In this document: positions 1 through 64,000 of the stretch, in pieces
Position numbering within the stretch: the stretch's first letter is position 1
Layout: the number at the start of each line of letters is the position of its first letter
Assembly: GCA_023053545.1 (NCBI GenBank)
Contig: JAKZAN010000068.1
Span: 62,001 to 126,000 of the forward strand
DNA from: Lepidurus packardi
Lineage: Eukaryota > Arthropoda > Branchiopoda > Notostraca > Triopsidae
DNA length: 64,000 bases
Direction: 5' to 3'
Notes under the pieces: generated by a model
The model's input: the letters and a program-made list of their open reading frames with translations, nothing else
What the model was told of the DNA's origin: nothing
The model's database searches: none
Translations under genes and position numbers: made by a program

Positions 1-2680
1 ATTTCTTTACGTACTGAAGTTATTCCTTACGGACTGAATTAATTACTTACGGACTGAATTATTTCCTTACGTACTGAACTTATTCCTTACGGACTGAATT
101 AATTCCTTACGGACTGAATTAATTCCTTACGGACTGAATTAATTCCTTACGGACTGAATTAATACCTTACGGACTGAATTAAATCCTTACGGACTGAATT
201 AATTCCTTACGGACTGAATTAATTCCTTACGGACTGAATTAATTCCTTACTGACTGAATTAATTCCTTACTGACTGAATTAATTCCTTACGGACTGAATT
301 AATTCCTTACGGACTGAATTAATTCCTTACGGACTGAATTAATTCCTTACGGACTGAATTAATTCCTTACGGACTTAATTAATTCCTTACGTACTTTATT
401 AATTCCTTACGGTCTGAATTAGTTCCGTACGGATTTTATTAATTCCTTACGGACTGAATCAATTCCGTACAGATTTTATTAATTCCTTACGGACTGAAGA
501 AATTCCTTACGAACTGAATTAATTCCGTACGGATTTTATTAATTCCTTACGGACTGAATTAATTCATTACGGACTGAATTAATTCCTTACGGACTGAATT
601 AATTCCTTACGGACTGAATTAATTCCTTAATTAATTCCTTACGGACTGAATTAATTTCATACGGACTGAATTAATTCATTACGGACTTAATTAGTCGTTT
701 ACGGACTGAATTAATTCCTTACGGACTTAATTAGTCGATTACGGACTGAAATAATTCCTTACGTACTGAACTTATTCCTTACGGACTGAATTAATTCCTT
801 ACGGACTGAATTAATACCTTACGGACTGAATTAAATCCTTTCGGACTGAATTAATTCCTTACGGACTGAATTAATTCCTTACGGACTGAATTAATTCCTT
901 ACTGACTGAATTAATTCCTTACGGACTGAATTAATTCCTTACGGACTGAATTAATTCCTTACGGACTGAATTAATTCCTTACGGACTGAATTAATTCCTT
1001 ACGGACTTAATTAATTCCTGACGGTCTGAATTAATTCCGTACGGATTTTATTAATTCCTTACGGACTGAATTAATTCATTACGGACTTAATTAATCCAAT
1101 ACGGACTGAATTATTTCCTTACGTACTGAAGTTATTCCTTACGGACTGAATTAATTCCTTACGTACTGAAATAATTCCTTACGGACTGAATTAATTCCTT
1201 ACGGACTGAATTAATTCCTTACGGACTGAATTAATTCCTTAATTAATTCCGTACGGACTGAATTAATTTCATACGGACTGAATTAATTCATTACGGACTT
1301 AATTAATCGATTACGGACTGAATTAATACCTTACGGACTGAATTAATTCCTTACGGACTGAATTAATTCCTTACGGACTTAATTAATTCCTTACGTACTT
1401 AACTAATTCCTTACGGTCTGAATTAATTCCGTACGGATTTTATTAATTCCTCACGGACTGAATTAATTCCGTACGGATTTTATTAATTCCTTACGTACTT
1501 AATTAATTCCTTACGGTCTGAATTAATTCATTACGGACTTAATTAATCCATTTCGGATTGAATTATTTCTTTACGTACTGAAGTTATTCCTTACGGACTG
1601 AATTAATTACTTACGGACTGAATTATTTCCTTACGTACTGAACTTATTCCTTACGGACTGAATTAATTCCTTACGGACTGAATTAATTCCTTACGGACTG
1701 AATTAATTCCTTACGGACTGAATTAATACCTTACGGACTGAATTAAATCCTTACGGACTGAATTAATTCCTTACGGACTGAATTAATTCCTTACGGACTG
1801 AATTAATTCCTTACTGACTGAATTAATTCCTTACTGACTGAATTAATTCCTTACGGACTGAATTAATTCCTTACGGACTGAATTAATTCCTTACGGACTG
1901 AATTAATTCCTTACGGACTGAATTAATTCCTTACGGACTTAATTAATTCCTTACGTACTTTATTAATTCCTTACGGTCTGAATTAGTTCCGTACGGATTT
2001 TATTAATTCCTTACGGACTGAATCAATTCCGTACAGATTTTATTAATTCCTTACGGACTGAAGAAATTCCTTACGAACTGAATTAATTCCGTACGGATTT
2101 TATTAATTCCTTACGGACTGAATTAATTCATTACGGACTGAATTAATTCCTTACGGACTGAATTAATTCCTTACGGACTGAATTAATTCCTTAATTAATT
2201 CCTTACGGACTGAATTAATTTCATACGGACTGAATTAATTCATTACGGACTTATTTAATCGATTACGGACTGAATTAATTCCTTACGTACTGAACTTATT
2301 CCTTACGGACTGAATTAATTCCTTACGGACTGAATTAATACCTTACGGACTGAATTAAATCCTTACGGACTGAATTAATTCCTTACGGACTGAATTAATT
2401 CCTTACGGACTGAATTAATTCCTTACTGACTGAATTAATTCCTTACGGACTGAATTAATTCCTTACGGACTGAATTAATTCCTTACGGACTGAATTAATT
2501 CCTTACGGACTGAATTAATTCCTTACGGACTTAATTAATTCCTTACGTACTTTATTAATTCCTTACGGTCTGAATTAATTCCGTACGGATTTTATTAATT
2601 CCTTACGGACTGAATTAATTCATTACGGACTGAATTAATTCCTTACGGACTGAATTAATTCCTTACGGACTGAATTAATT

Positions 2681-2792
2681 CCTTAATTAATTCCTTACGG
2701 ACTGAATTAATTTCATACGGACTGAATTAATTCATTACGGACTTATTTAATCGATTACGGACTGAATTAATTCCTTACGTACTGAACTTATT
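2681..2792 (+). repeat. Representative marker plus leader module (about 112 bp)
   Basis: This shows the ordered block that follows almost every short monomer. After the 12-bp marker come a canonical monomer, one with TTTCATACGG (C3 to T, T5 to A), one with TTCATTACGG and a GACTTA end (C4 to A, G14 to T), one with TCGATTACGG (T2 to C, C3 to G, C4 to A), then a monomer ending normally, and TTCCTTACGTACTGAACTTA (G10 to T, T17 to C, A19 to T). Here the fourth monomer is entered by TTATTTAATCG, a left-region subtype also seen after 2189, 3813, 5437, 6269 and 10165. Exceptions to the order are visible after 19738, 19950, 23290, 24574, 35605, 48397, 49601, 51016 and 51640, where the leader is shortened or replaced. 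Confidence 0.9.
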
Positions 2793-3050
2793 CCTTACGG
2801 ACTGAATTAATTCCTTACGGACTGAATTAATACCTTACGGACTGAATTAAATCCTTACGGACTGAATTAATTCCTTACGGACTGAATTAATTCCTTACGG
2901 ACTGAATTAATTCCTTACTGACTGAATTAATTCCTTACGGACTGAATTAATTCCTTACGGACTGAATTAATTCCTTACGGACTGAATTAATTCCTTACGG
3001 ACTGAATTAATTCCTTACGGACTTAATTAATTCCTTACGGTCTGAATTAA

Positions 3051-3070
3051 TTCCGTACGGATTTTATTAA
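3051..3070 (+). repeat. Representative of the four-substitution monomer type CCGTACGGATTTT
   Basis: This type differs from the consensus at four linked positions (T5 to G, C12 to T, G14 to T, A15 to T), giving TTCCGTACGGATTTTATTAA. It recurs hundreds of times across the window and usually follows a GGTCTGAA monomer (A11 to T). The four changes travel together, so this is an old monomer lineage, not repeated independent mutation. Subtypes include CCGTACAGATTTT after GAATCAATT, TTCTGTACGG (about 15.6-46.6 kb), TTACGTACGG and a CCCTACGG form. It creates the palindrome CGTACG, absent from the consensus. Confidence 0.9.
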
Positions 3071-4160
3071 TTCCTCACGGACTGAATTAATTCCGTACGG
3101 ATTTTATTAATTCCTTACGTACTTAATTAATTCCTTACGGTCTGAATTAATTCATTACGGACTTAATTAATCCATTTCGGATTGAATTATTTCTTTACGT
3201 ACTGAAGTTATTCCTTACGGACTGAATTAATTACTTACGGACTGAATTATTTCCTTACGTACTGAACTTATTCCTTACGGACTGAATTAATTCCTTACGG
3301 ACTGAATTAATTCCTTACGGACTGAATTAATTCCTTACGGACTGAATTAATACCTTACGGACTGAATTAAATCCTTACGGACTGAATTAATTCCTTACGG
3401 ACTGAATTAATTCCTTACGGACTGAATTAATTCCTTACTGACTGAATTAATTCCTTACTGACTGAATTAATTCCTTACGGACTGAATTAATTCCTTACGG
3501 ACTGAATTAATTCCTTACGGACTGAATTAATTCCTTACGGACTGAATTAATTCCTTACGGACTTAATTAATTCCTTACGTACTTTATTAATTCCTTACGG
3601 TCTGAATTAGTTCCGTACGGATTTTATTAATTCCTTACGGACTGAATCAATTCCGTACAGATTTTATTAATTCCTTACGGACTGAAGAAATTCCTTACGA
3701 ACTGAATTAATTCCGTACGGATTTTATTAATTCCTTACGGACTGAATTAATTCATTACGGACTGAATTAATTCCTTACGGACTGAATTAATTCCTTACGG
3801 ACTGAATTAATTCCTTAATTAATTCCTTACGGACTGAATTAATTTCATACGGACTGAATTAATTCATTACGGACTTATTTAATCGATTACGGACTGAATT
3901 AATTCCTTACGTACTGAACTTATTCCTTACGGACTGAATTAATTCCTTACGGACTGAATTAATACCTTACGGACTGAATTAAATCCTTACGGACTGAATT
4001 AATTCCTTACGGACTGAATTAATTCCTTACGGACTGAATTAATTCCTTACTGACTGAATTAATTCCTTACGGACTGAATTAATTCCTTACGGACTGAATT
4101 AATTCCTTACGGACTGAATTAATTCCTTACGGACTGAATTAATTCCTTACGGACTTAATT

Positions 4161-7100
4161 AATTCCTTACGGTCTGAATTAATTCCGTACGGATTTTATT
4201 AATTCCTTACGGACTGAATTAATTCATTACGGACTTAATTAATCCAATACGGACTGAATTATTTCCTTACGTACTGAAGTTATTCCTTACGGACTGAATT
4301 AATTCCTTACGTACTGAAATAATTCCTTACGGACTGAATTAATTCCTTACGGACTGAATTAATTCTTTACGGACTGAATTAATTCCTTAATTAATTCCTT
4401 ACGGACTGAATTAATTTCATACGGACTGAATTAATTCATTACGGACTTAATTAATCGATTACGGACTGAATTAATTCCTTACGTACTGAACTTATTCCTT
4501 ACGGACTGAATTAATTCCTTACGGACTGAATTAATACCTTACGGACTGAATTAAATCCTTACGGACTGAATTAATTCCTTACGGACTGAATTAATTCCTT
4601 ACGGACTGAATTAATTCCTTACTGACTGAATTAATTCCTTACGGACTGAATTAATTCCTTACGGACTGAATTAATTCCTTACGGACTGAATTAATTCCTT
4701 ACGGACTTAGTTAATTCCTTACGTACTTAATTAATTTCTTACGGTCTGAATTAATTCCGTACGGATTTTGTTAATTCCTCACGGACTGAATTAATTCCGT
4801 ACGGATTTTATTAATTCCTTACGTACTTAATTAATTCCTTACGGTCTGAATTAATTCCGTACGGATTTTATTAATTCCTTACGGACTGAATTTATTCATT
4901 ACGGACTTAATTAATCCATTACGGATTGAATTATTTCTTTACGTACTGAAGTTATTCCTTACGGACTGAATTAATTACTTACGGACTGAATTATTTCCTT
5001 ACGTACTGAACTTATTCCTTACGGACTGAATTAATTCCTTACGGACTGAATTAATTCCTTACGGACTGAATTAATTCCTTACGGACTGAATTAATACCTT
5101 ACGGACTGAATTAAATCCTTACGGACTGAATTAATTCCTTACGGACTGAATTAATTCCTTACGGACTGAATTAATTCCTTACTGACTGAATTAATTCCTT
5201 ACTGACTGAATTAATTCCTTACGGACTGAATTAATTCCTTACGGACTGAATTAATTCCTTACGGACTGAATTAATTCCTTACGGACTGAATTAATTCCTT
5301 ACGGACTTAATTAATTCCTTACGTACTTTATTAATTCCTTACGGTCTGAATTAGTTCCGTACGGATTTTATTAATTCCTTACGGACTGAATCAATTCCGT
5401 ACAGATTTTATTAATTCCTTACGGACTGAATTAATTCCTTAATTAATTCCTTACGGACTGAATTAATTTCATACGGACTGAATTAACTCATTACGGACTT
5501 ATTTAATCGATTACGGACTGAATTAATTCCTTACGTACTGAACTTATTCCTTACGGACTGAATTAATTCCTTACGGTCTGAATTAATTCCGTACGGATTT
5601 TGTTAATTCCTCACGGACTGAATTAATTCCGTACGGATTTTATTAATTCCTTACGTACTTAATTAATTCCTTACGGTCTGAATTAATTCCGTACGGATTT
5701 TATTAATTCCTTACGGACTGAATTTATTCATTACGGACTTAATTAATCCATTACGGATTGAATTATTTCTTTACGTACTGAAGTTATTCCTTACGGACTG
5801 AATTAATTACTTACGGACTGAATTATTTCCTTACGTACTGAACTTATTCCTTACGGACTGAATTAATTCCTTACGGACTGAATTAATTCCTTACGGACTG
5901 AATTAATTCCTTACGGACTGAATTAATACCTTTCGGACTGAATTAAATCCTTACGGACTGAATTAATTCCTTACGGACTGAATTAATTCCTTACGGACTG
6001 AATTAATTCCTTACTGACTGAATTAATTCCTTACTGACTGAATTAATTCCTTACGGACTGAATTAATTCCTTACGGACTGAATTAATTCCTTACGGACTG
6101 AATTAATTCCTTACGGACTGAATTAATTCCTTACGGACTTAATTAATTCCTTACGTACTTTATTAATTCCTTACGGTCTGAATTAGTTCCGTACGGATTT
6201 TATTAATTCCTTACGGACTGAATCAATTCCGTACAGATTTTATTAATTCCTTACGGACTGAATTAATTCCTTAATTAATTCCTTACGGACTGAATTAATT
6301 TCATACGGACTGAATTAACTCATTACGGACTTATTTAATCGATTACGGACTGAATTAATTCCTTACGTACTGAACTTATTCCTTACGGACTGAATTAATT
6401 CCTTACGGTCTGAATTAATTCCGTACGGATTTTGTTAATTCCTCACGGACTGAATTAATTCCGTACGGATTTTATTAATTCCTTACGTACTTAATTAATT
6501 CCTTACGGTCTGAATTAATTCCGTACGGATTTTATTAATTCCTTACGGACTGAATTTATTCATTACGGACTTAATTAATCCATTACGGATTGAATTATTT
6601 CTTTACGTACTGAAGTTATTCCTTACGGACTGAATTAATTACTTACGGACTGAATTATTTCCTTACGTACTGAACTTATTCCTTACGGACTGAATTAATT
6701 CCTTACGGACTGAATTAATTCCTTACGGACTGAATTAATTCCTTACGGACTGAATTAATACCTTTCGGACTGAATTAAATCCTTACGGACTGAATTAATT
6801 CCTTACGGACTGAATTAATTCCTTACGGACTGAATTAATTCCTTACTGACTGAATTAATTCCTTACTGACTGAATTAATTCCTTACGGACTGAATTAATT
6901 CCTTACGGACTGAATTAATTCCTTACGGACTGAATTAATTCCTTACGGACTTAATTAATTCCTTACGGTCTGAATTAATTCCGTACGGATTTTATTAATT
7001 CCTTACGGACTGAATTAATTCATTACGGACTTAATTAATCCAATACGGACTGAATTATTTCCTTACGTACTGAAGTTATTCCTTACGGACTGAATTAATT

Positions 7101-7890
7101 CCTTACGTACTGAAATAATTCCTTACGGACTGAATTAATTCCTTACGGACTGAATTAATTCTTTACGGACTGAATTAATTCCTTAATTAATTCCTTACGG
7201 ACTGAATTAATTTCATACGGACTGAATTAATTCATTACGGACTTAATTAATCGATTACGGACTGAATTAATTCCTTACGTACTGAACTTATTCCTTACGG
7301 ACTGAATTAATTCCTTACGGACTGAATTAATACCTTACGGACTGAATTAAATCCTTACGGACTGAATTAATTCCTTACGGACTGAATTAATTCCTTACGG
7401 ACTGAATTAATTCCTTACTGACTGAATTAATTCCTTACGGACTGAATTAATTCCTTACGGACTGAATTAATTCCTTACGGACTGAATTAATTCCTTACGG
7501 ACTTAGTTAATTCCTTACGTACTTAATTAATTCCTTACGGTCTGAATTAATTCCGTACGGATTTTGTTAATTCCTCACGGACTGAATTAATTCCGTACGG
7601 ATTTTATTAATTCCTTACGTACTTAATTAATTCCTTACGGTCTGAATTAATTCCGTACGGATTTTATTAATTCCTTACGGACTGAATTTATTCATTACGG
7701 ACTTAATTAATCCATTACGGATTGAATTATTTCTTTACGTACTGAAGTTATTCCTTACGGACTGAATTAATTACTTACGGACTGAATTATTTCCTTACGT
7801 ACTGAACTTATTCCTTACGGACTGAATTAATTCCTTACGGACTGAATTAATTCCTTACGGACTGAATTAATTCCTTACGGACTGAATTAA
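4161..7890 (+). repeat. Segment repeated at 2,796 bp, flanking the 832-bp triplication
   Basis: The block at about 4161-4932 recurs at about 6957-7728: both contain TCCAATACGG, GAAGTTATTCC, GAAATAATTCC, a TTCTTTACGGACTGAA monomer just before the short monomer (4385 and 7181), and GACTTAGTTAATTCC. The offset is 2,796 bp for the short monomers and for the second diagnostic monomers (4933 and 7729). The 832-bp copies lie between the two, so the larger and smaller duplications are nested. The downstream copy has TACCTTTCGG near 7891, as in the second and third 832-bp copies. Confidence 0.78.
4741..6944 (+). repeat. 832-bp tandem triplication (third copy partial)
   Basis: Copies run at about 4741-5572, 5573-6404 and 6405-6944. 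Each begins at an ACGGTCTGAA monomer followed by CCGTACGGATTTTGTT, a rare ending. The short monomers at 5437 and 6269 and the second diagnostic monomers at 4933, 5765 and 6597 keep the 832-bp step. Copies 2 and 3 share TACCTTTCGG where copy 1 has TACCTTACGG, so copies 2 and 3 are the closest pair, or copy 1 differs by one later change. The rare GAATTAACTCATTACGG occurs only near 5485 and 6317. The third copy departs at about 6,940, where one canonical monomer is missing and a different block begins. Confidence 0.88.
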
Positions 7891-7940
7891 TACCTTTCGG
7901 ACTGAATTAAATCCTTACGGACTGAATTAATTCCTTACGG

Positions 7941-8980
7941 ACTGAATTAATTCCTTACGGACTGAATTAATTCCTTACTGACTGAATTAATTCCTTACTG
8001 ACTGAATTAATTCCTTACGGACTGAATTAATTCCTTACGGACTGAATTAATTCCTTACGGACTGAATTAATTACTTACGGACTGAATTAATTCCTTACGG
8101 ACTGAATTAATTCCTTACTGACTGAATTAATTCCTTACGGACTGAATTAATTCCTTACGGACTGAATTAATTCCTTACTGACTGAATTAATTCCTTACGG
8201 ACTTAATTAATTCCTTACGTACTTTATTAATTCCTTACGGTCTGAATTAATTCCGTACGGATTTTATTAAATCCTTACGGACTGAATTAATTCCGTACGG
8301 ATTTTATTAATTCCTTACGGACTTAATAAATTCCTTACGAACTGAATTAATTCCGTACGGATTTTATTAATTCCTTACGGACTGAATTAATTCATTACGG
8401 ACGGAATTAATTCCTTACTGACTGAATTAATTCATTACGGACTGAATTAATTCCTTACGGACTGAATTAATTCCTTACGGACTGAATTAATTCCTTACTG
8501 ACTGAATTAATTCCTTACTGACTGAATTAATTCCTTACGGACTGAATTAATTCCTTACGGACTGAATTAATTCCTTACGGACTGAATTAATTACTTACGG
8601 ACTGAATTAATTCCTTACGGACTGAATTAATTCCTTACTGACTGAATTAATTCCTTACGGACTGAATTAATTCCTTACGGACTGAATTAATTCCTTACTG
8701 ACTGAATTAATTCCTTACGGACTTAATTAATTCCTTACGTACTTTATTAATTCCTTACGGTCTGAATTAATTCCGTACGGATTTTATTAAATCCTTACGG
8801 ACTGAATTAATTCCGTACGGATTTTATTAATTCCTTACGGACTTAATAAATTCCTTACGAACTGAATTAATTCCGTACGGATTTTATTAATTCCTTACGG
8901 ACTGAATTAATTCATTACGGACGGAATTAATTCCTTACTGACTGAATTAATTCATTACGGACTGAATTAATTCCTTACGG
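7941..8980 (+). repeat. 520-bp (26-monomer) tandem duplication
   Basis: Two copies, about 7941-8460 and 8461-8980, match monomer by monomer. They share two TTACTGAC monomers in a row, a TTACTTACGG monomer (8071 and 8591), GAATTAATTCCGTACGG, TTAAATCC, GACTTAATAAATTCC, TTACGAACTG and the rare TTCATTACGGACGGAA. The period is exactly 26 monomers with no short monomer inside the first copy, so exchange occurred in register. This insertion explains the longest marker interval in the window (7181 to 8993, 1,812 bp). Confidence 0.9.
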
Positions 8981-11900
8981 ACTGAATTAATTCCTTAATT
9001 AATTCCTTACGGACTGAATTAATTTCATACGGACTGAATTAATTTATTACGGACTTAATTAATCGATTACGGACTGAATTAATTCCTTACGTACTGAACT
9101 TATTCCTTACGGACTGAATTAATTCCTTACGGACTGAATTAATACCTTACGGACTGAATTAAATCCTTACGGACTGAATTAATTCCATACGGACTGAATT
9201 AATTCCTTACGGACTGAATTAATTCCTTACTGACTGAATTAATTCCTTACGGACTGAATTAATTCCTTACGGACTGAATTAATTCCTTACGGACTGAATT
9301 AATTCCTTACGGACTTAATTAATTCCTTACGTACTTAATTAATTTTTTACGGTCTGAATTAATTCCGTACGGATTTTATTAATTCCTCACGGACTGAAAT
9401 AATTCCGTACGGATTTTATTAATTCCTTACGTACTTAATTAATTCCTTACGGTCTGAATTAATTCCGTACGGATTTTATTAATTCCTTACGGACTGAATT
9501 TATTCATTACGGACTTAATTAATCCATTACGGATTGAATTATTTCTTTACGTACTGAAGTTATTCCTTACGGACTGAATTAATTACTTACGGACTGAATT
9601 ATTTCCTTACGTACTGAACTTATTCCTTACGGACTGAATTAATTCCTTACGGACTGAATTAATTCCTTACGGACTGAATTAATTCCTTACGGACTGAATT
9701 AATACTTTACGGACTGAATTAAATCCTTACGGACTGAATTAATTCCTTACGGACTGAATTAATTCCTTACGGACTGAATTAATTCCTTACTGACTGAATT
9801 AATTCCTTACTGACTGAATTAATTCCTTACGGACTGAATTAATTCCTTACGGACTGAATTAATTCCTTACGGACTGAATTAATTCCTTACGGACTGAATT
9901 AATTCCTTACGGAATTAATTAATTCCTTACGTACTTTATTAATTCCTTACGGTCTGAATTAGTTCCGTACGGATTTTATTAATTCCTTACGGACTGAATC
10001 AATTCCGTACAGATTTTATTAATTCCTTACGGACTGAATAAATTCCTTACGAACTGAATTAATTCCGTACGGATTTTATTAATTCCTTACGGACTGAATT
10101 AATTCATTACGGACTGAATTAATTCCTTACGGACTGAATTAATTCCTTACGGACTGAATTAATTCCTTAATTAATTCCTTACGGACTGAATTAATTTCAT
10201 ACGGACTGAATTAATTCATTACGGACTTATTTAATCGATTACGGACTGAATTAATTCCTTACGTACTGAACTTATTCCTTACGGACTGAATTAATTCCTT
10301 ACGGACTGAATTAATACCTTACGGACTGAATTAAATCCTTACGGACTGAATTAATTCCTTACGGACTGAATTAATTCCTTACGGACTGAATTAATTCCTT
10401 ACTGACTGAATTAATTCCTTACGGACTGAATTAATTCCTTACGGACTGGATTAATTCCTTACGGACTGAATTAATTCCTTACGGACTGAATTAATTCCTT
10501 ACGGACTTAATTAATTCCTTACGGTCTGAATTAATTCCGTACGGATTTTATTAATTCCTTACGGACTGAATTAATTCATTACGGACTTAATTAATCCAAT
10601 ACGGACTGAATTATTTCCTTACGTACTGAAGTTATTCCTTACGGACTGAATTAATTCCTTACGTACTGAAATAATTCCTTACGGACTGAATTAATTCCTT
10701 ACGGACTGAATTAATTCCTTACGGACTGAATTAATTCCTTACGGACTGAATTAATTCCTTAATTAATTCCTTACGGACTGAATTAATTTCATACGGACTG
10801 AATTAATTCATTACGGACTTAATTAATCGATTACGGACTGAATTAATTCCTTACGTACTGAACTTATTCCTTACGGACTGAATTAATTCCTTACGGACTG
10901 AATTAATACCTTACGGACTGAATTAAATCCTTACGGACTGAATTAATTCCTTACGGACTGAATTAATTCCTTACGGACTGAATTAATTCCTTACTGACTG
11001 AATTAATTCCTTACGGACTGAATTAATTCCTTACGGACTGAATTAATTCCTTACGGACTGAATTAATTCCTTACGGACTTAGTTAATTCCTTACGTACTT
11101 AATTAATTCCTTACGGTCTGAATTAATTCCGTACGGATTTTGTTAATTCCTCACGGACTGAATTAATTCCGTACGGATTTTATTAATTCCTTACGTACTT
11201 AATTAATTCCTTACGGTCTGAATTAATTCCGTACGGATTTTATTAATTCCTTACGGACTGAATTTATTCATTACGGACTTAATTAATCCATTACGGATTG
11301 AATTATTTCTTTACGTACTGAAGTTATTCCTTACGGACTGAATTAATTACTTACGGACTGAATTATTTCCTTACGTACTGAAATAATTCCTTACGGACTG
11401 AATTAATTCCTTACGGACTGAATTAATTCCTTACGGACTGAATTAATACCTTACGGACTGAATTAAATCCTTACGGACTGAATTAATTCCTTACGGACTG
11501 AATTAATTCCTTACGGACTGAATTAATTCATTACGGACTTAATTAATCCAATACGGGCTGAATTATTTCCTTACGTACTGAAGTTATTCCTTACGGACTG
11601 AATTAATTCCTTACGTACTGAAATAATTCCTTACGGACTGAATTAAATCCTTACGGACTGAATTAATTCCTTACGGACTGAATTAATTCCTTACGGACTG
11701 AATTAATTCCTTACGGACTGAATTAATTCCTTACGGACTGAATTAATTCCTTACGGACTGAATTAATTCCTTACGGACTGAATTAATTCCTTACGGACTG
11801 AATTAATTCCTTACGGACTGAATTAATTCCTTACTGACTGAATTAATTCCTTACGGACTGAATTAATTCCTTACGGACTGAATTAATTCCTTACTGACTG

Positions 11901-15828: not shown

Positions 15829-16477
15829 CCTTAATTAATTCCTTACGGACTGAATTAATTTCATACGGACTGAATTAATTCATTACGGTCTTAATTAATC
15901 GATTACGGACTGAATTAATTCCTTACGTACTGAACTTATTCCTTACGGACTGAATTAATTCCTTACGGACTGAATTAATACCTTACGGACTGAATTAAAT
16001 CCTTACGGACTGAATTAATTCCTTACGGACTGAATTAATTCCTTACGGACTGAAATTATTCCTTACTGACTGAATTAATTCCTTACGGACTGAATTAATT
16101 CCTTACGGACTGAATTAATTCCTTACGGACTGAATTAATTCCTTACGGACTTAATTAATTCCTTACGTACTTAATTAATTCCTTACGGTCTGAATTAATT
16201 CCGTACGGATTTTATTAATTCCTTACGGACTGAATTAATTCATTACGGACTTAATTAATCCAATACGGACTGAATTAATTCCTTACGGACTGAATTAATT
16301 CCTTACTGACTGAATTAATTCCTTACGGACTGAATTAATTCCTTACGGACTGAATTAATTCCTTACTGACTGAATTAATTCCTTACGGACTTAATTAATT
16401 CCTTACGTACTTTATTAATTCCTTACGTAATTTATTAATTCCTTACGGTCTGAATTAATTCCGTACGGATTTTATTA

Positions 16478-16478
16478 A
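16478..16478 (+). other. One-base register shift (+1)
   Basis: TTATTAAATTCCTTACGAACTG has one base more than the 20-bp register allows, making the surrounding marker interval 793 bp. Compared with related blocks (for example near 20,470-20,550), the simplest reading is a 59-bp deletion joining a TTATTAAATCC monomer to a TTAATAAATTCC monomer at shared AAAT, and not an inserted A. Confidence 0.85.
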
Positions 16479-32020: not shown

Positions 32021-35010
32021 GAATTAATTCCTTACGGACTTAATTAATTCCTTACGTACTTTATTAATTCCTTACGGTCTGAATTAGTTCCGTACGGATT
32101 TTATTAATTCCTTACGGACTGAATCAATTCCGTACAGATTTTATTAATTCCTTACGGACTGAATAAATTCCTTACGAACTGAATTAATTCCGTACGGATT
32201 TTATTAATTCCTTACGGACTTAATTAATTCCTTACGGTCTGAATTAATTCCGTACGGATTTTATTAATTCCTTACGGACTGAATTAATTCATTACGGACT
32301 TAATTAATCCAATACGGACTGAATTATTTCCTTACGTACTGAAGTTATTCCTTACGGACTGAATTAATTCCTTACGTACTGAAATAATTCCTTACGGACT
32401 GAATTAATTCCTTACGGACTGAATTAATTCCTTACGGACTGAATTAATTCCTTAATTAATTCCTTACGGACTGAATTAATTTCATACGGACTGAATTAAT
32501 TCATTACGGACTTAATTAATCGATTACGGACTGAATTAATTCCTTACGTACTGAACTTATTCCTTACGGACTGAATTAATTCCTTACGGACTGAATTAAT
32601 ACCTTACGGACTGAATTAAATCCTTACGGACTGAATTAATTCCTTACGGACTGAATTAATTCCTTACGGACTGAATTAATTCCTTACGGACTGAATTAAT
32701 TCCTTAATTAATTCCTTACGGACTGAATTAATTTCATACGGACTGAATTAATTCATTACGGACTTAATTAATCGATTACGGACTGAATTAATTCATTACG
32801 GACTGAATTAATTCCTTACTGACTGAATTAATTCATTACGGACTGAATTAATTCCTTACGGACTGAATTAATTCCTTAATTAATTCCTTACGGACTGAAT
32901 TAATTTCATACGGACTGAATTAATTCATTACGGACTTAATTAATCGATTACGGACTGAATTAATTCCTTACGTACTGAACTTATTTCTTACGGACTGAAT
33001 TAATTCCTTACGGACTGAATTAATACCTTACGGACTGAATTAAATCCTTACGGACTGAATTAATTCCTTACGGACTGAATTAATTCCTTACGGACTGAAT
33101 TAATTCCTTACTGACTGAATTAATTCCTTACGGACTGAATTAATTCCTTACGGACTGAATTAATTCCTTACGGACTGAATTAATTCCTTACGGACTTAAT
33201 TAATTCCTTACGTACTTAATTAATTCCTTACGGTCTGAATTAATTCCGTACGGATTTTATTAATTCCTTACGGACTGAATTAATTCCTTAATTAATTCCT
33301 TACGGACTGAATTAATTTCATACGGACTGAATTAATTCATTACGGACTTAAATAATCGATTACGGACTGAATTAATTCCTTACGTACTGAACTTATTCCT
33401 TACGGACTGAATTAATTCCTTACGGACTGAATTAATTCCTTACGGACTGAATTAATTCCTTACGGACTTAATTAATTCCTTACGGACTTTATTAATTCCT
33501 TACGGACTGAATTAATTCCGTACGGACTGAATTAATTCCTTACGGACTGAATTAATTCCTTACGGACTGAATTAATTCCTTACGGACTTAATTAATTCCT
33601 TACGTACTTTATTAATTCCTTACGGTCTGAATTAGTTCCGTACGGATTTTATTAATTCCTTACGGACTGAATCAATTCCGTACAGATTTTATTAATTCCT
33701 TACGGACTGAATAATTCCTTACGAACTGAATTAATTCCGTACGGATTTTATTAATTCCTTACGGACTTAATTAATTCCTTACGGTCTGAATTAATTCCGT
33801 ACGGATTTTATTAATTCCTTACGGACTGAATTAATTCATTACGGACTTAATTAATCCAATACGGACTGAATTATTTCCTTACGTACTGAAGTTATTCCTT
33901 ACGGACTGAATTAATTCCTTACGTACTGAAATAATTCCTTACGGACTGAATTAATTCCTTACGGACTGAATTAATTCCTTACGGACTGAATTAATTCCTT
34001 AATTAATTCCTTACGGACTGAATTAATTTCATACGGACTGAATTAATTCATTACGGACTTAATTAATCGATTACGGACTGAATTAATTCCTTACGTACTG
34101 AACTTATTCCTTACGGACTGAATTAATTCCTTACGGACTGAATTAATACCTTACGGACTGAATTAAATCCTTACGGACTGAATTAATTTCTTACGGACTG
34201 AATTAATTCCTTACGGACTGAATTAATTCCTTACGGACTGAATTAATTCCTTAATTAATTCCTTACGGACTGAATTAATTTCATACGGACTGAATTAATT
34301 CATTACGGACTTAATTAATCGATTACGGACTGAATTAATTCATTACGGACTGAATTAATTCCTTACTGACTGAATTAATTCATTACGGACTGAATTAATT
34401 CCTTACGGACTGAATTAATTCCTTAATTAATTCCTTACGGACTGAATTAATTTCATACGGACTGAATTAATTCATTACGGACTTAATTAATCGATTACGG
34501 ACTGAATTAATTCCTTACGTACTGAACTTATTTCTTACGGACTGAATTAATTCCTTACGGACTGAATTAATACCTTACGGACTGAATTAAATCCTTACGG
34601 ACTGAATTAATTCCTTACGGACTGAATTAATTCCTTACGGACTGAATTAATTCCTTACTGACTGAATTAATTCCTTACGGACTGAATTAATTCCTTACGG
34701 ACTGAATTAATTCCTTACGGACTGAATTAATTCCTTACGGACTTAATTAATTCCTTACGTACTTAATTAATTCCTTACGGTCTGAATTAATTCCGTACGG
34801 ATTTTATTAATTCCTTACGGACTGAATTAATTCCTTAATTAATTCCTTACGGACTGAATTAATTTCATACGGACTGAATTAATTCATTACGGACTTAAAT
34901 AATCGATTACGGACTGAATTAATTCCTTACGTACTGAACTTATTCCTTACGGACTGAATTAATTCCTTACGGACTGAATTAATTCCTTACGGACTGAATT
35001 AATTCCTTAC
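31921..35010 (+). repeat. 1,548-bp tandem duplication
   Basis: Copy 1 is about 31921-33468 and copy 2 about 33469-35010. Marker intervals 252, 172 and 412 repeat in both (32450, 32702, 32874, 33286; 33997, 34249, 34421, 34833). Both include an unusual short stretch with TTCATTACGG, TTACTGAC, TTCATTACGG before a short monomer, and GAACTTATTTCTTACGG (about 32980 and 34529). After a one-base loss in copy 2 near 33713 the offset becomes 1,547 bp. The match ends at about 35,010. Confidence 0.88.
33713..33713 (+). other. One-base register shift (-1)
   Basis: GACTGAATAATTCCTTACGAACTG lacks one A compared with GAATAAATTCC in the parallel copy near 32,160. It makes the marker interval 711 bp and changes the offset of the 1,548-bp duplication to 1,547 bp, so it arose after that duplication. 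Confidence 0.88.
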
Positions 35011-49854: not shown

Positions 49855-49855
49855 T
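49855..49855 (+). other. One-base register shift (-1)
   Basis: TTCCTACTGACTG lacks one T of the usual TTCCTTACTGACTG. It makes the marker interval from 49601 to 50412 equal to 811 bp. No parallel copy with the same loss was seen, so it is a private event. Confidence 0.88.
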
Positions 49856-50663
49856 ACTGACTGAATTAATTCCTTACGGACTGAATTAATTCCTTACGGA
49901 CTGAATTAATTCCTTACGGACTGAATTAATTCCTTACGGACTGAATTAATTCCTTACGGACTTAATTAATTCCTTACGGACTGAATCAATTCCGTACAGA
50001 TTTTATTAATTCCTTACGGACTGAATAAATTCCTTACGAACTGAATTAATTCCGTACGGATTTTATTAATTCCTTACGGACTGAATTAATTCATTACGGA
50101 CTGAATTAATTCCTTACGGACTGAATTAATACCTTACGGACTGAATTAAATCCTTACGGACTGAATTAATTCTTTACGGACTGAATTAATTCCTTACGGA
50201 CTGAATTAATTCCTTACTGACTGAGTTAATTCCTTACTGACTGAATTAATTCCTTACGGACTGAATTAATTCCTTACGGACTGAATTAATTCCTTACGTA
50301 CTGAAATAATTCCTTACGGACTGAATTAATTCCTTACGGACTGAATTAATTCCTTACGGACTGAATTAATTCCTTACGGACTGAATTAATTCCTTACGGA
50401 CTGAATTAATTCCTTAATTAATTCCTTACGGACTGAATTAATTTCATACGGACTGAATTAATTCATTACGGACTTAATTAATCGATTACGGACTGAATTA
50501 ATTCCTTACGTACTGAACTTATTCCTTACGGACTGAATTAATTCCTTACGGACTGAATTAATTCCTTACGGACTGAATTAATTCCTTACGTACTGAAATA
50601 ATTCCTTACGGACTGAATTAATTCCTTACGGACTGAATTAATTCCTTACGGACTGAATTAATT

Positions 50664-51931: not shown

Positions 51932-52740
51932 CCTTAATTAATTCCTTACGGACTGAATTAATTTCATACGGACTGAATTAATTCATTACGGACTTAATTA
52001 ATCGATTACGGACTGAATTAATTCCTTACGTACTGAACTTATTCCTTACGGACTGAATTAATTCCTTACGGACTGAATTAATTCCTTACGGACTGAATTA
52101 ATTCCTTACGTACTGAAATAATTCCTTACGGACTGAATTCATTCCTTACGGACTGAATTAATTCCGTACGGATTTTATTAATTCCTTACGGAATGAATTA
52201 ATTCATTACGGACTGAAGAAATTCCTTACGAACTGAATTAATTCCGTACGGATTTTATTAATTCCTTACGGACTGAATTAATTCATTACGGACTGAAATA
52301 ATTCCTTACGGACTGAATTAATTCCTTACGGACTGAATTAATTCCTTACGGACTGAATTAATTCCTTACGGACTTAATTAATTCCTTACGGACTGAATTA
52401 ATTCCTTACGGACTGAATTAATTCCTTACGGACTGAAATAATTCCTTACTGACTGAATTAAATCCTTTCGGACTGAATTAATTCCTTTCGGACTGAATTA
52501 GTTCCTTAAGGACTGAATTAATTCCTTACGTACTTAATTAATTCCTTACGGTCTGAAATAATTCCGTACGGATTTTATTAATTCCTTACGGACTGAATTA
52601 ATTCATTACGGACTGAAGAAATTCCTTACGAACTGAATTAATTCCGTACGGATTTTTTTAATTCCTTACGGACTGAATTAATTCATTACGGACTGAAATA
52701 ATTCCTTACGGACTGAATTAATTCATTACGGACTGAATTA

Positions 52741-54919: not shown

Positions 54920-57367
54920 ACTGAATTAATTCCTTACGGACTTAATTAATTCCTTACGTAATTAATTAATTCCTTACGGTCTGAATTAATTCCGTACGGA
55001 TTTTATTAATTCCTTACGGACTGAATTAATTCATTACGGACTTAATTAATCCATTACGGACTGAATTATTTCCTTACGTACTGAAGTTATTTCTTACGGA
55101 CTGAATTAATTCCTTACGTACTGAAATAATTCCTTACGGACTGAATTAATTCCTTACGGACTGAATTAATTCCTTACGGACTGAATTAATTCCTTACGGA
55201 CTGAATTAATTCCTTACGGACTGAATTAATTCCTTAATTAATTCCTTACGGACTGAATTAATTTCATACGGACTGAATTAATTCATTACGGACTTAATTA
55301 ATCGATTACGGACTGAATTAATTCCTTACGTACTGAACTTATTCCTTACGGACTGAATTAATTCCTTACGGACTGAATTAATTCCTTACGGACTGAATTA
55401 ATTCCTTACGGACTGAATTAATACCTTACGGACTGAATTAAATCCTTACGGACTGAATTAATTCCTTACGGACTGAATTAATTCCTTACGGACTGAAATA
55501 ATTCCTTACTGACTGAATTAAATCCTTACGGACTGAATTAATTCCATTCGGACTGAATTAGTTCCTTAAGGACTGAATTAATTCCTTACGTACTTAATTA
55601 ATTCCTTACGGTCTGAATTAATTCCGTACGGATTTTATTAATTCCTTACGGACTGAATTAATTCATTACGGACTGAAGAAATTCCTTACGGACTGAATTA
55701 ATTCCGTACGGATTTTATTAATTCCTTACGGACTGAATTAATTCATTACGGACTGAAATAATTCCTTACGGACTGAATTAATTCCTTACGGACTGAATTA
55801 ATTCCTTACGGACTGAATTAATTCCTTACGGACTTAATTAATTCCTTACGTACTTTATTAATTCCTTACGGTCTGAATTAATTCCGTACGGATTTTATTA
55901 ATTCCTTACGGACTGAATCAATTCCGTACAGATTTTATTAATTCCTTACGGACTGAATAAATTCCTTACGAACTGAATTAATTCCGTACGGATTTTATTA
56001 ATTCCTTACGGACTGAATTAATTCATTACGGACTGAATTAATTCCTTACGGACTGAATTAATTCCTTAATTAATTCCTTACGGACTGAATTAATTTCATA
56101 CGGACTGAATTAATTCATTACGGACTTAATTAATCGATTACGGACTGAATTAATTCCTTACGGACTTAATTAATTCCTTACGTAATTAATTAATTCCTTA
56201 CGGTCTGAATTAATTCCGTACGGATTTTATTAATTCCTTACGGACTGAATTAATTCATTACGGACTTAATTAATCCATTACGGACTGAATTATTTCCTTA
56301 CGTACTGAAGTTATTTCTTACGGACTGAATTAATTCCTTACGTACTGAAATAATTCCTTACGGACTGAATTAATTCCTTACGGACTGAATTAATTCCTTA
56401 CGGACTGAATTAATTCCTTACGGACTGAATTAGTTCCTTACGGACTGAATTAATTCCTTAATTAATTCCTTACGGACTGAATTAATTTCATACGGACTGA
56501 ATTAATTCATTACGGACTTAATTAATCGATTACGGACTGAATTAATTCCTTACGTACTGAACTTATTCCTTACGGACTGAATTAATTCCTTACGGACTGA
56601 ATTAATTCCTTACGGACTGAATTAATTCCTTACGGACTGAATTAATACCTTACGGACTGAATTAAATCCTTACGGACTGAATTAATTCCTTACGGACTGA
56701 ATTAATTCCTTACGGACTGAAATAATTCCTTACTGACTGAATTAAATCCTTACGGACTGAATTAATTCCATTCGGACTGAATTAGTTCCTTAAGGACTGA
56801 ATTAATTCCTTACGTACTTAATTAATTCCTTACGGTCTGAATTAATTCCGTACGGATTTTATTAATTCCTTACGGACTGAATTAATTCATTACGGACTGA
56901 AGAAATTCCTTACGGACTGAATTAATTCCGTACGGATTTTATTAATTCCTTACGGACTGAATTAATTCATTACGGACTGAAATAATTCCTTACGGACTGA
57001 ATTAATTCCTTACGGACTGAATTAATTCCTTACGGACTGAATTAATTCCTTACGGACTTAATTAATTCCTTACGTACTTTATTAATTCCTTACGGTCTGA
57101 ATTAATTCCGTACGGATTTTATTAATTCCTTACGGACTGAATCAATTCCGTACAGATTTTATTAATTCCTTACGGACTGAATAAATTCCTTACGAACTGA
57201 ATTAATTCCGTACGGATTTTATTAATTCCTTACGGACTGAATTAATTCATTACGGACTGAATTAATTCCTTACGGACTGAATTAATTCCTTAATTAATTC
57301 CTTACGGACTGAATTAATTTCATACGGACTGAATTAATTCATTACGGACTTAATTAATCGATTACGG
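54920..57367 (+). repeat. 1,224-bp tandem duplication
   Basis: Copy 1 is about 54920-56143 and copy 2 about 56144-57367. The short monomers 55232 and 56456, and 56064 and 57288, are 1,224 bp apart. Private shared variants are TTACGTAATTAATTAA (54958 and 56182), GAAGTTATTTCTTACGG (about 55085 and 56309) and TTCCATTCGG (55543 and 56767). Copy 2 has a private TTAGTTCCTTACGG near 56429. Confidence 0.88.
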
Positions 57368-59850
57368 ACTGAATTAATTCCTTACGTACTGAACTTATTC
57401 CTTACGGACTGAATTAATTCCTTACGGACTGAATTAATACCTTACGGACTGAATTAAATCCTTACGGACTGAATTAATTCCTTACTTACTGAATTAATTC
57501 CTTACGGACTGAATTAATTCCTTACTGACTGAATTAATTCCTTACGGACTGAATTAATTCCTTACGGACTGAATTAATTCTTTACGGACTGAATTAATTC
57601 CTTACGGACTTAATTAATTCCTTACGTACTTAATTAATTCCTTACGGTCTGAATTAATTCCGTACGGATTTTATTAATTCCTTACGGACTGAATTAATTC
57701 ATTACGGACTTAATTAATCCATTACGGACTGAATTATTTCCTTACGTACTGAAGTTATTCCTTACGGACTGAATTAATTCCTTACGTACTGAAATAATTC
57801 CTTACGGACTGAATTAATTCCTTACGGACTGAATTAATTCCTTACGGACTGAATTAATTCCTTACGGACTGAATTAATTCCTTACGGACTGAATTAATTC
57901 CTTAATTAATTCCTTACGGACTGAATTAATTTCATACGGACTGAATTAATTCATTACGGACTTAATTAATCGATTACGGACTGAATTAATTCCTTACGTA
58001 CTGAACTTATTCCTTACGGACTGAATTAATTCCTTACGGACTGAATTAATTCTTTCCGGATTGAATTAAATCCTTACGGACTGAATTAATACCTTACGGA
58101 CTGAATTAAATCCTTACGGACTGAATTAATTCCTTACGGACTGAATTAATTCCTTACGGACTGAAATAATTCCTTACTGACTGAATTAAATCCTTACGGA
58201 CTGAATTAATTCCTTACGGACTGAATTAATTCCTTACGGACTGAATTAATTCCTTACGGACTGAAATAATTCCTTACTGACTGAATTAAATCCTTACGGA
58301 CTGAATTAATTCCTTTCGGACTGAATTAATTCCTTAAGGACTGAATTAATTCCTTACGTACTTAATTAATTCCTTACGGTCTGAATTAATTCCGTACGGA
58401 TTTTATTAATTCCTTACGGACTGAATTAATTCATTACGGACTGAAGAAATTCCTTACGGACTGAATTAATTCCGTACGGATTTTATTAATTCCTTACGGA
58501 CTGAATTAATTCATTACGGACTGAAATAATTCCTTACGGACTGAATTAATTCCTTACGGACTGAATTAATTCCTTACGGACTGAATTAATTCCTTACGGA
58601 CTTAATTAATTCCTTACGTACTTTATTAATTCCTTACGGTCTGAATTAATTCCGTACGGATTTTATTAATTCCTTACGGACTGAATCAATTCCGTACAGA
58701 TTTTATTAATTCCTTACGGACTGAATAAATTCCTTACGAACTGAATTAATTCCGTACGGATTTTATTAATTCCTTACGGACTGAATTAATTCATTACGGA
58801 CTGAATTAATTCCTTACGGACTGAATTAATTCCTTAATTAATTCCTTACGGACTGAATTAATTTCATACGGACTGAATTAATTCATTACGGACTTAATTA
58901 ATCGATTACGGACTGAATTAATTCCTTACGTACTGAACTTATTCCTTACGGACTGAATTAATTCCTTACGGACTGAATTAATACCTTACGGACTGAATTA
59001 AATCCTTACGGACTGAATTAATTCCTTACGGACTGAATTAATTCCTTACGGACTGAATTAATTCCTTACTGACTGAATTAATTCCTTACGGACTGAATTA
59101 ATTCCTTACGGACTGAATTAATTCTTTACGGACTGAATTAATTCCTTACGGACTTAATTAATTCCTTACGTACTTAATTAATTCCTTACGGTCTGAATTA
59201 ATTCCGTACGGATTTTATTAATTCCTTACGGACTGAATTAATTCATTACGGACTGAATTAATCCATTACGGACTGAATTATTTCCTTACGTACTGAAGTT
59301 ATTCCTTACGGACTGAATTAATTCCTTACGTACTGAAATAATTCCTTACGGACTGAATTAATTCCTTACGGACTGAATTAATTCCTTACGGACTGAATTA
59401 ATTCCTTACGGACTGAATTAATTCCTTACGGACTGAATTAATTCCTTAATTAATTCCTTACGGACTGAATTAATTTCATACGGACTGAATTAATTCATTA
59501 CGGACTTAATTAATCGATTACGGACTGAATTAATTCCTTACGTACTGAACTTATTCCTTACGGACTGAATTAATTCCTTACGGACTGAATTAATTCTTTC
59601 CGGACTGAATTAAATCCTTACGGACTGAATTAATACCTTACGGACTGAATTAAATCCTTACGGACTGAATTAATTCCTTACGGACTGAATTAATTCCTTA
59701 CGGACTGAAATAATTCCTTACTGACTGAATTAAATCCTTACGGACTGAATTAATTCCTTACGGACTGAATTAATTCCTTACGGACTGAATTAATTCCTTA
59801 CGGACTGAAATAATTCCTTACTGACTGAATTAAATCCTTACGGACTGAAT
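57288..59850 (+). repeat. 1,544-bp offset duplication (second copy partial)
   Basis: Copy 1 is 57288-58831 and copy 2 is about 58832-59850. The intervals 612 bp (57288 and 58832) match and the rare TTCTTTCCGG followed by TTAAATCC occurs near 58053 and 59597. Copy 1 has TTACTTACTGAA near 57481 and TTCCGGATTG; copy 2 has TTCCGGACTG. After about 59,850 copy 2 switches to a CGTACTTTATT block, so the next marker interval is 652 bp and not 932 bp. Confidence 0.83.
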
Positions 59851-60747
59851 TAATTCCTTACGTACTTTATTAATTCCTTACGGTCTGAATTAATTCCGTA
59901 CGGATTTTATTAATTCCTTACGGACTGAATTAATTCCGTACGGATTTTATTAATTCCTTACGGACTGAATAAATTCCTTACGAACTGAATTAATTCCGTA
60001 CGGATTTTATTAATTCCTTACGGACTGAATTAATTAATTACGGACTGAATTAATTCCTTACGGACTGAATTAATTCCTTACGGACTGAATTAATTCCTTA
60101 ATTAATTCCTTACGGACTGAATTAATTTCATACGGACTGAATTAATTCATTACGGACTTAATTAATCGATTACGGACTGAATTAATTCCTTACGTACTGA
60201 ACTTATTCCTTACGGACTGAATTAATTCCTTACGGACTGAATTAATTCCTTACGGACTGAATTAATTCCTTACGGACTGAATTAATACCTTACGGACTGA
60301 ATTAAATCCTTACGGACTGAATTAATTCCTTACGGACTGAATTAATTCCTTACGGACTGAAATAATTCCTTACTGACTGAATTAAATCCTTACGGACTGA
60401 ATTAATTCCTTACGGACTGAATTAATTCCTTACGGACTGAATTAATTCCTTACGGACTGAAATAATTCCTTACTGACTGAATTAAATCCTTACGGACTGA
60501 ATTAATTCCTTACGTACTTTATTAATTCCTTACGGTCTGAATTAATTCCGTACGGATTTTATTAATTCCTTACGGACTGAATTAATTCCGTACGGATTTT
60601 ATTAATTCCTTACGGACTGAATAAATTCCTTACGAACTGAATTAATTCCGTACGGATTTTATTAATTCCTTACGGACTGAATTAATTAATTACGGACTGA
60701 ATTAATTCCTTACGGACTGAATTAATTCCTTACGGACTGAATTAATT
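59444..60747 (+). repeat. 652-bp tandem pair
   Basis: Short monomers at 59444, 60096 and 60748 bound two 652-bp modules of the same composition. Each contains GAAATAATTCCTTACTGAC twice, a CGTACTTTATT monomer, two CCGTACGGATTTT monomers, GAATAAATTCC with TTACGAACTG, and TTAATTAATTACGG before the end. Copy 1 has the TTCTTTCCGG and TTAAATCC pair near 59597, replaced by canonical monomers in copy 2. A similar closing block precedes the short monomers at 61640, 63256 and 63808. Confidence 0.85.
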
Positions 60748-61719
60748 CCTTAATTAATTCCTTACGGACTGAATTAATTTCATACGGACTGAATTAATTC
60801 ATTACGGACTTAATTAATCGATTACGGACTGAATTAATTCCTTACGTACTGAACTTATTCCTTACGGACTGAATTAATACCTTACGGACTGAATTAAATC
60901 CTTACGGACTGAATTAATTCCTTGCGGACTGAATTAATTCCTTACGGATTGAATTAATTCCTTACTGACTGAATTAATTCCTTACGGACTGAATTAATTC
61001 CTTACGGACTGAATTAATTCCTTACGGACTGAAATAATTCCTTACTGACTGAATTAAATCCTTACGGACTGAATTAATTCCTTTCGGACTGAATTAGTTC
61101 CTTAAGTACTGAATTAATTCCTTACGTACTTAATTAATTCCTTACGGTCTGAATTAATTCCGTACGGATTTTATTAATTCCTTACGGAATGAATTAATTC
61201 ATTACGGACTGAAGAAATTCCTTACGAACTGAATTAATTCCGTACGGATTTTATTAATTCCTTACGGACTGAATTAATTCATTACGGACTGAAATAATTC
61301 CTCACGGACTGAATTAATTCCTTACGGACTGAATTAATTCCTTACGGACTGAATTAATTCCTTACGGACTTAATTAATTCCTTACGGACTGAATTAATTC
61401 CTTACGTACTTTATTAATTCCTTACGGTCTGAATTAATTCCGTACGGATTTTATTAATTCCTTACGGACTGAATTAATTCCGTACGGATTTTATTAATTC
61501 CTTACGGACTGAATAAATTCCTTACGAACTGAATTAATTCCGTACGGATTTTATTAATTCCTTACGGACTGAATTAATTAATTACGGACTGAATTAATTC
61601 CTTACGGACTGAATTAATTCCTTACGGACTGAATTAATTCCTTAATTAATTCCTTACGGACTGAATTAATTTCATACGGACTGAATTAATTCATTACGGA
61701 CTTAATTAATCGATTACGG

Positions 61720-62863
61720 ACTGAATTAATTCCTTACGTACTGAACTTATTCCTTACGGACTGAATTAATTCCTTACGGACTGAATTAATTCCTTACGGA
61801 CTGAATTAATTCCTTACGGACTGAATTAATTCCTTACGGACTTAATTAATTCCTTACGTACTTAATTAATTCCTTACGGTCTGAATTAATTCCGTACGGA
61901 TTTTATTAATTCCTTACGGACTGAATAAATTCCTTACGAACTGAATTAATTCCGTACGGATTTTATTAATTCCTTACGGACTGAAATAATTCATTACTGA
62001 CTGAATTAAATCCTTACGGACTGAATTAATTCCTTTCGGACTGAATTAGTTCCTTAAGGACTGAATTAATTCCTTACGTATTTAATTAATTCCTTACGGT
62101 CTGAATTAATTCCGTACGGATTTTATTAATTCCTTACGGACTGAATTAATTCATTACGGACTGAAGAAATTCCTTACGGACTGAATTAATTCCGTACGGA
62201 TTTTATTAATTCCTTACGGACTGAATTAATTCATTACGGACTGAAATAATTCCTTACGGACTGAATTAATTCATTACGGACTGAATTAATTCCTTAATTA
62301 ATTCCTTACGGACTGAATTAATTTCATACGGACTGAATTAATTCATTACGGACTTAATTAATCTATTACGGACTGAATTAATTCCTTACGTACTGAACTT
62401 ATTCCTTACGGACTGAATTAATTCCTTACGTACTTAATTAATTCCTTACGGTCTGAATTAATTCCGTACGGATTTTATTAATTCCTTACGGACTGAATAA
62501 ATTCCTTACGAACTGAATTAATTCCGTACGGATTTTATTAATTCCTTACGGACTGAAATAATTCATTACTGACTGAATTAAATCCTTACGGACTGAATTA
62601 ATTCCTTTCGGACTGAATTAGTTCCTTAAGGACTGAATTAATTCCTTACGTACTTAATTAATTCCTTACGGTCTGAATTAATTCCGTACGGATTTTATTA
62701 ATTCCTTACGGACTGAATTAATTCATTACGGACTGAAGAAATTCCTTACGGACTGAATTAATTCCGTACGGATTTTATTAATTCCTTACGGACTGAATTA
62801 ATTCATTACGGACTGAAATAATTCCTTACGGACTGAATTAATTCATTACGGACTGAATTAATT
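61720..62863 (+). repeat. 572-bp tandem pair
   Basis: Copies at about 61720-62291 and 62292-62863. Both carry GAAATAATTCATTACTGAC (61983 and 62555), TTAAATCC, TTCCTTTCGG, the TTAAGG monomer, GAAGAAATTCCTTACGG and TTCATTACGG before the marker. Copy 1 has TTACGTATTTAATT near 62080 where copy 2 has TTACGTACTTAATT. TTAATCTATTACGG follows the short monomers at 62292 and 62864. In this window it is otherwise limited to the 1,244-bp pair near 13.5 and 14.8 kb. Confidence 0.82.
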
Positions 62864-64000
62864 CCTTAATTAATTCCTTACGGACTGAATTAATTTCATA
62901 CGGACTGAATTAATTCATTACGGACTTAATTAATCTATTACGGACTGAATTAATTCCTTACGTACTGAACTTATTCCTTACGGACTGAATTAATTCCTTA
63001 CGGACTGAATTAATTCCTTACGGACTGAATTAATTCCTTACGGACTTAATTAATTCCTTACGGTCTGAATTAATTCCGTACGGATTTTATTAATTCCTTA
63101 CGGAATGAATTAATTCATTACGGACTGAAGAAATTCCTTACGAACTGAATTAATTCCGTACGGATTTTATTAATTCCTTACGGACTGAATTAATTAATTA
63201 CGGACTGAATTAATTCCTTACGGACTGAATTAATTCCTTACGGACTGAATTAATTCCTTAATTAATTCCTTACGGACTGAATTAATTTCATACGGACTGA
63301 ATTAATTCATTACGGACTTAATTAATCGATTACGGACTGAATTAATTCCTTACGTACTGAACTTATTCCTTACGGACTGAATTAATTCCTTACGGACTGA
63401 ATTAATTCCGTACGGATTTTATTAATTCCTTACGGACTGATTAAATTCCTTACGAACTGAATTAATTCCGTACGGATTTTATTAATTCCTTACGGACTGA
63501 AATAATTCATTACTGACTGAATTAAATCCTTACGGACTGAATTAATTCCTTTCGGACTGAATTAGTTCCTTAAGGACTGAATTAATTCCTTACGTACTTA
63601 ATTAATTCCTTACGGTCTGAATTAATTCCGTACGGATTTTATTAATTCCTTACGGAATGAATTAATTCATTACGGACTGAAGAAATTCCTTACGAACTGA
63701 ATTAATTCCGTACGGATTTTATTAATTCCTTACGGACTGAATTAATTAATTACGGACTGAATTAATTCCTTACGGACTGAATTAATTCCTTACGGACTGA
63801 ATTAATTCCTTAATTAATTCCTTACGGACTGAATTAATTTCATACGGACTGAATTAATTCATTACGGACTTAATTAATCGATTACAGACTGAATTAATTC
63901 CTTACGTACTGAACTTATTCCTTACGGACTGAATTAATTCCTTACGGACTGAATTAATTCCTTACGGACTGAATTAATTCCTTACGGACTGAATTAATAC

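Follow-up and report, generated by a model that had tools for sequence, protein, structure and literature searches.

Satellites with higher-order repeats, such as alpha satellite and the pericentric satellites of insects, are built of head-to-tail, non-coding monomers whose variants are amplified in multi-monomer blocks; PubMed Central (PMC) article PMC8122249 describes block copies that are closer to each other than monomers are, and length change that is quantised. The same source describes the unequal-crossover model of repeated DNA of Smith (1976), in which periodicity and homogeneity arise without selection and length changes by repeat units. We analysed 64,000 bp of Lepidurus packardi DNA (the window), bases 62001-126000 of contig JAKZAN010000068.1 (C57; 210,571 bp) in an assembly of 108.6 Mb in 344 contigs. 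The whole window is a 20-bp satellite with its units head-to-tail (Table 1), and the remainder of C57 also aligned to the consensus TTCCTTACGGACTGAATTAA, in one orientation throughout (10,645 units). No open reading frame of at least 40 amino acids was found in the window (six frames, table 11, ATG, GTG or TTG starts), ruling out coding constraint on the repeat register. The canonical CENP-B box is NTTCGNNNNANNCGGGN; perfect matches to it on both strands of the window numbered 0 (1.30 expected in shuffles), and the array was therefore not classed as a CENP-B-box satellite. The window array is satellite DNA with higher-order repeats: it is a long tandem array, it is made of repeated blocks, and it is non-coding. 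It resembles the systems in PMC8122249 in its block-amplified variants, in the closeness of its block copies and in quantised length change, and differs from them in its short 20-bp monomer, its irregular block length, a 12-bp partial unit and the absence of a perfect CENP-B box. The Smith (1976) model, as set out there, is general; the window array adds a count of on-step and off-step changes.

The original prediction held that register is kept over 64 kb apart from three single-base shifts, either because exchange between copies is always in register or because something (for instance a phased array of protein or nucleosomes) tolerates base changes and not changes of spacing. Our analysis indicates that register was most likely kept through whole-repeat copying, and not by enforced spacing. 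Each block was set against the exact copy preceding it, where the match between the two ended, and distinct differences that resumed within 200 bp were counted; points without resumption within 200 bp were omitted and uncounted. In the window, the differences were 55 substitutions, 46 length changes of 20n, 4 of other multiples of 4 and 3 off-step. On the whole of C57, the corresponding numbers were 173, 146, 22 and 4. The other multiples of 4 were blocks containing the 12-bp unit. Length changes are therefore quantised: steps of whole repeats or blocks made up 50 of the 53 classified length differences of up to 200 bp in the window and 168 of 172 on C57, in support of the first of the two proposals. 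A wider version of the comparison left 402 of 1,673 divergence points unresolved and its large gaps were possibly chance resumptions; the restricted count was used instead. Between block copies, length changes and substitutions occur at about equal frequency, and a modular test of distances is blind to the former. The impression that indels are strongly under-represented thus held for small off-step indels alone, and less strongly than it seemed, length changes overall being common. Homology-guided exchange along a 20-bp repeat predicts this pattern of common but stepwise length change.

The array descends from few distinct copies. Periodic alignment of the window gave 4173 substitutions relative to TTCCTTACGGACTGAATTAA per 63,999 aligned bases (6.5%), and its 3239 units comprised 153 distinct sequences, 70 of them single-copy. 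An exact earlier copy inside the window was found for 44,354 of 63,901 100-mers, most frequently at spacings of about 0.4 to 3.5 kb; set against the 6.5% divergence from the consensus, this places block copies closer to each other than monomers are. Substitutions are thus plentiful, as had been claimed, and mostly inherited copies. Private substitutions in the window numbered 74, 72, 76, 54 and 41 at flanks of 20, 30, 40, 60 and 100 bp, the count varying with flank length, and 273 on the whole of C57 (20-bp flanks). The independent recent changes in the window are therefore about 74 private substitutions to 3 small shifts, and not 4173 to 3.

Shared descent also applies to the 12-bp units that served as markers in the original prediction. 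The breakpoint was identical in 290 of 290 such units on C57, and the 8-bp deletions of 10-kb samples from two other contigs (11 on C50, 14 on C30) likewise shared one breakpoint. Most simply, the 290 units on C57 are one ancestral deletion, copied many times. With one breakpoint for all of them, the 97 distances between markers are not 97 independent tests, and the units are themselves register shifts of the 20-bp lattice.

The register observation itself was reproduced: 94 of the 97 marker distances equalled 12 modulo 20, two equalled 11 and one equalled 13. Alongside the 98 8-bp deletions that produce the 12-bp units, the periodic alignment contained three small shifts, +1 at 16477, -1 at 33713 and -1 at 49856, which correspond to the predicted breaks at 16478, 33713 and 49855. 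Six gap-opening costs, from -6 to -1.5, gave the same outcome, so no compensated indels were hidden by the alignment, and the first refuting outcome named with the original prediction, many such indels in a full alignment, did not arise. At 16477, restoring 19 bp gave 14 matching places at 30- or 40-bp flanks and no such match at 60- or 100-bp flanks, and removing just the extra A gave 0 matches at any of the four flank lengths. This shift is most simply a 19-bp deletion rather than a 1-bp insertion, and may itself stem from exchange along the 20-bp repeat. The junctions at 16477 (32 bases) and 33713 (35 bases) each occurred once in the assembly, whereas the 32-mer at 49856 occurred at three places, two of them on contig C211. 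The shifts at 16477 and 33713 share one block position: both are then followed by AATTCCTTACGAACTGAATTAATTCCGTACGG, and they adjoin an AAA variant.

Table 1. Features located in the 64,000-bp window, with the basis of each assignment.
Feature	Position	Strand	Basis
20-bp satellite array TTCCTTACGGACTGAATTAA in irregular higher-order blocks	1..64000	+	Tandem Repeats Finder 3..63998, period 20, 3239 copies; periodic alignment
First of 98 12-bp units, TTCCTTAATTAA (monomer less 8 bp); marker of the original prediction	623..634	+	sequence, alignment
Register shift +1, most simply a 19-bp deletion	16477..16478	+	comparison with 14 sister places, 40-bp flanks
Register shift -1, A lost from AAA run	33712..33713	+	13 sister places (40-bp flanks), 1 (60-bp flanks)
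Register shift -1, T lost from TT pair	49855..49856	+	15 sister places, 60-bp flanks

The proposal that base changes are tolerated and changes of spacing are not found no support, since spacing was constant neither within the window nor between arrays. With the 8-bp shifts included, the window contains 101 shifts. Its uninterrupted runs have a median of 572 bp, the 20-bp lattice takes up 15 of 20 offsets, and any protein or nucleosome lattice dependent on 20-bp spacing would be reset about every 0.6 kb. Register between arrays was measured with exact copies of a 40-base marker around the 12-bp unit, which occurs at 2,808 places in the assembly (1,701 + 1,107), 228 of them on C57. Intervals of up to 3 kb were used, and an interval that was not a multiple of 4 was scored as off register. 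Outside C57, the markers came from a listing of 100 of these 2,808 places (those first in order), which covered C4 and part of C30. Off-register intervals made up 3 of 89 in the window and 15 of 222 on C57, and among the markers listed 24 of 53 on the plus strand of C4, 11 of 12 on its minus strand and 9 of 18 on C30; they are partly copies of each other (951 bp three times on C4), and the figures count copies, not events. Intervals above 3 kb, which were dropped, numbered 5 of 227 on C57, 0 of 89 in the window, 9 of 62 and 3 of 15 on the plus and minus strands of C4, and 2 of 20 on C30.

Stretches of other arrays were also read directly. Four kilobases of C210 had 16 one-base deletions and 6 insertions, and 4 kb of C90 had 7 one-base deletions; of 10 contigs sampled blind to register, these two were the ones made of satellite. 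Two small shifts were found in C4:117501-121000, a piece picked for its off-register markers, three in 10 kb of C30 and none in 10 kb of C50. C57 also loses register over a stretch of its own at about 6.8-16 kb, in which two one-base deletions separated by 27 bp recur as a pair, six times in all. Per 4-kb bin of C57, one-base shifts were absent from 39 of 52 bins and reached a maximum of 10. The satellite as a whole does not keep register, and other arrays lose step often.

Off-step variants are propagated with the blocks. One 19-mer was found three times on C30. The 19-bp monomer TTCTTTAGGATTGATTGAA had 11 copies in locus L041 (C210:1001-5000), 6 in L037 (C90:1001-5000) and 6 on C57, with a one-base relative twice in L047 (C4:117501-121000); it may represent another sub-family of this satellite. 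No 12-bp units were present in L041, and six were in L037. Among types on C57, 8 of 18 off-length types occurred in at least two copies compared with 238 of 374 20-mers (Fisher p = 0.13), leaving 10 off-length and 136 20-mer single-copy units; the difference lies in the direction of purging and is not significant.

Several results weigh against turnover alone as the source of the register. Mutation-accumulation work in Drosophila puts indels at about one sixth of the rate of substitutions and finds them commoner in low-complexity sequence (PMC4929002). We simulated the neutral turnover of blocks in register, with the number of distinct units matched to that seen, varying the input ratio of indels to substitutions; the fractions given are the share of samples with as few off-length types as seen. 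In the window simulation with the 12-bp unit counted as off-length, ratios of 1:6 and 1:10 gave 0.000 and 0.005 of 200 samples (100 runs), 1:15 was marginal (0.040), and 1:20 (0.125) and 1:30 (0.365) fitted. When the 12-bp unit was not counted, 1:20 gave 0.028 and 1:30 gave 0.120 of 400 samples. The matched window runs had about 55 single-copy types compared with the 70 seen. The C57 simulation gave 0.000 at 1:10, 0.062 at 1:15, 0.175 at 1:20 and 0.600 at 1:30 (80 samples), and replaced a first whole-contig version that was miscalibrated (about 1,085 distinct types vs 399 seen). Longer blocks, less well matched at about 200 distinct types, gave 0.025 at 1:30 and 0.230 at 1:50. The window also had fewer off-length types than blind-sampled C90 and C210 together (3 of 151 vs 9 of 97, p = 0.013; denominators are distinct 20-mers plus off-length types). 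The five samples outside C57, when pooled, had 11 off-length and 247 full-length types, summed over samples with shared types counted more than once, which is near the 18 and 374 of C57. Judged from these simulations, the rate of small off-step indels per substitution is perhaps 3- to 5-fold below the Drosophila average of 1:6, or further below it with longer blocks, and some shortage of small indels beyond turnover alone may remain.

Selection on spacing, by which a phased protein or nucleosome array would tolerate substitutions and not spacing changes, would accommodate this shortage: the simulation excluded a Drosophila-like input of 1:6, the window had fewer off-length types than the two other sampled arrays, and its small shifts were just 3 against 74 private substitutions (20-bp flanks). 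We consider it very improbable, given the 101 shifts, short runs and 15 offsets of the window, the frequent loss of register by the same satellite on C4, C30, C90 and C210, and the amplification of off-length units. The C50 sample, which had no small shifts, had 11 8-bp shifts. Older flanks of alpha satellite drift relative to the active core, and a related reading would take near-perfect register as the mark of a functionally active layer (the C57 and C50 type, for example a kinetochore-bearing core) in which spacing or recombination fidelity purges off-step indels, the end of C4, C90 and C210 being retired layers drifting out of register; this too has very little probability in our judgement.

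For any residual shortage, a run-poor monomer and erasure during consensus building are the possible causes we favour, and a test on base runs leans to the former. The longest base run in the consensus is two, so slippage would be rare, leaving run-length changes and a mis-stepped 19-bp deletion. We give this mutational cause an even chance. Two of the three window shifts indeed shorten a run by one base (AAA to AA; TT to T), and the third reads as a 19-bp deletion. Substitutions per indel ranged from 5.9 to 35.7 across seven pairs of presumed mitochondrial insertions in this genome; a recent duplication, at least 5.2 kb long, had 12 substitutions to 4 indels. When runs of at least 3 bases were omitted, the ratio of substitutions to indels increased for 5 of these 7 pairs, reaching 51 to 1 at most, and fell for 2; with runs of at least 4 bases omitted, it rose in 6 and fell in 1. 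These pairs are a poor yardstick, as they share members and mix mitochondrial with nuclear change. A further point against the mutational cause is that C210, of the same monomer family, had 7 off-length among 50 distinct 19- to 21-mers, and that C90 and C210 together exceed the window.

Alternatively, long-read consensus building or polishing may have erased true small indels in near-identical blocks, or made the few that were seen. A run-length change by one base is a typical class of read error, two of the shifts are of this class, and two of the three junctions are found once in the assembly. The recurrence of the 49856 junction on C211 and the many off-length units retained on other contigs of the same assembly argue in the other direction, and we regard an assembly artefact as rather unlikely.

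The presumed nuclear insertions of mitochondrial COX1 are L012, L014, L015, L016, L035 and L036; one of them translates, with the invertebrate mitochondrial code, as an arthropod-like COX1, and one pair lies inside an inverted duplication on C4 (at least 5.2 kb, 99.4% identity). At L013, another COX1 match, the strand read gave no COX1, and the locus was not used as a baseline. Three COX1-family genes are open under the standard code, L009 (C52), L010 (C214) and L011 (C43), whose loci have 41%, 66% and 41% G+C; these loci are perhaps from bacterial genomes in the assembly. L046 (C340:1001-5000) holds another kind of tandem repeat, with a 96-bp unit (41.6 copies; 91% matches and 0% indels) and long open frames.

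Whole-repeat copying remains our reading of the register, and we hold the explanation with high confidence as a whole: the window is the interior of a large non-coding 20-bp satellite array in irregular higher-order blocks, which would be homogenised under homology-guided unequal exchange and block duplication (turnover of the Smith type). Blocks would be gained and lost by such exchange, or by an equivalent such as break-induced replication. If pairing follows the 20-bp repeats, length would change in 20-bp steps or in blocks with the 12-bp unit, and register would be kept automatically, without selection on spacing. An off-step indel is copied along with its block like any substitution, as the 8-bp deletion now present 290 times on C57 most simply was, and the window array would happen to descend from blocks poor in off-step variants. 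The mechanism of exchange and its recency are what we infer from these patterns.

Scaled from the marker count on C57, arrays of the marker-bearing type would total about 2.6 Mb in the assembly, a figure that omits stretches without the 12-bp unit, such as the C210 sample. As regards a possible heterochromatic or centromeric location, C57 is filled by the satellite, and on the chromosome-scale contig C4 (13.49 Mb) it lies near one end, at C4:4,692-213,375, where its orientation flips between about 128 and 163 kb. A TAACC tract in the assembly is consistent with the telomere repeat of arthropods and, like the arthropod-like COX1 insertion, points to a probable arthropod genome. Six consensus pieces of 16-17 bases were absent on both strands from the main texts of open-licence PMC articles (unbroken strings only), and general literature searches on satellites, indel ratios and branchiopod satellites named no such satellite.

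These results indicate that register over 64 kb can arise from shared descent plus repeat-guided exchange, and that tests of constraint should not treat markers multiplied by block duplication as independent. Were raw reads to confirm the shortage of off-step indels, satellites would give a clean estimate of how indels mutate in sequence without homopolymer runs.

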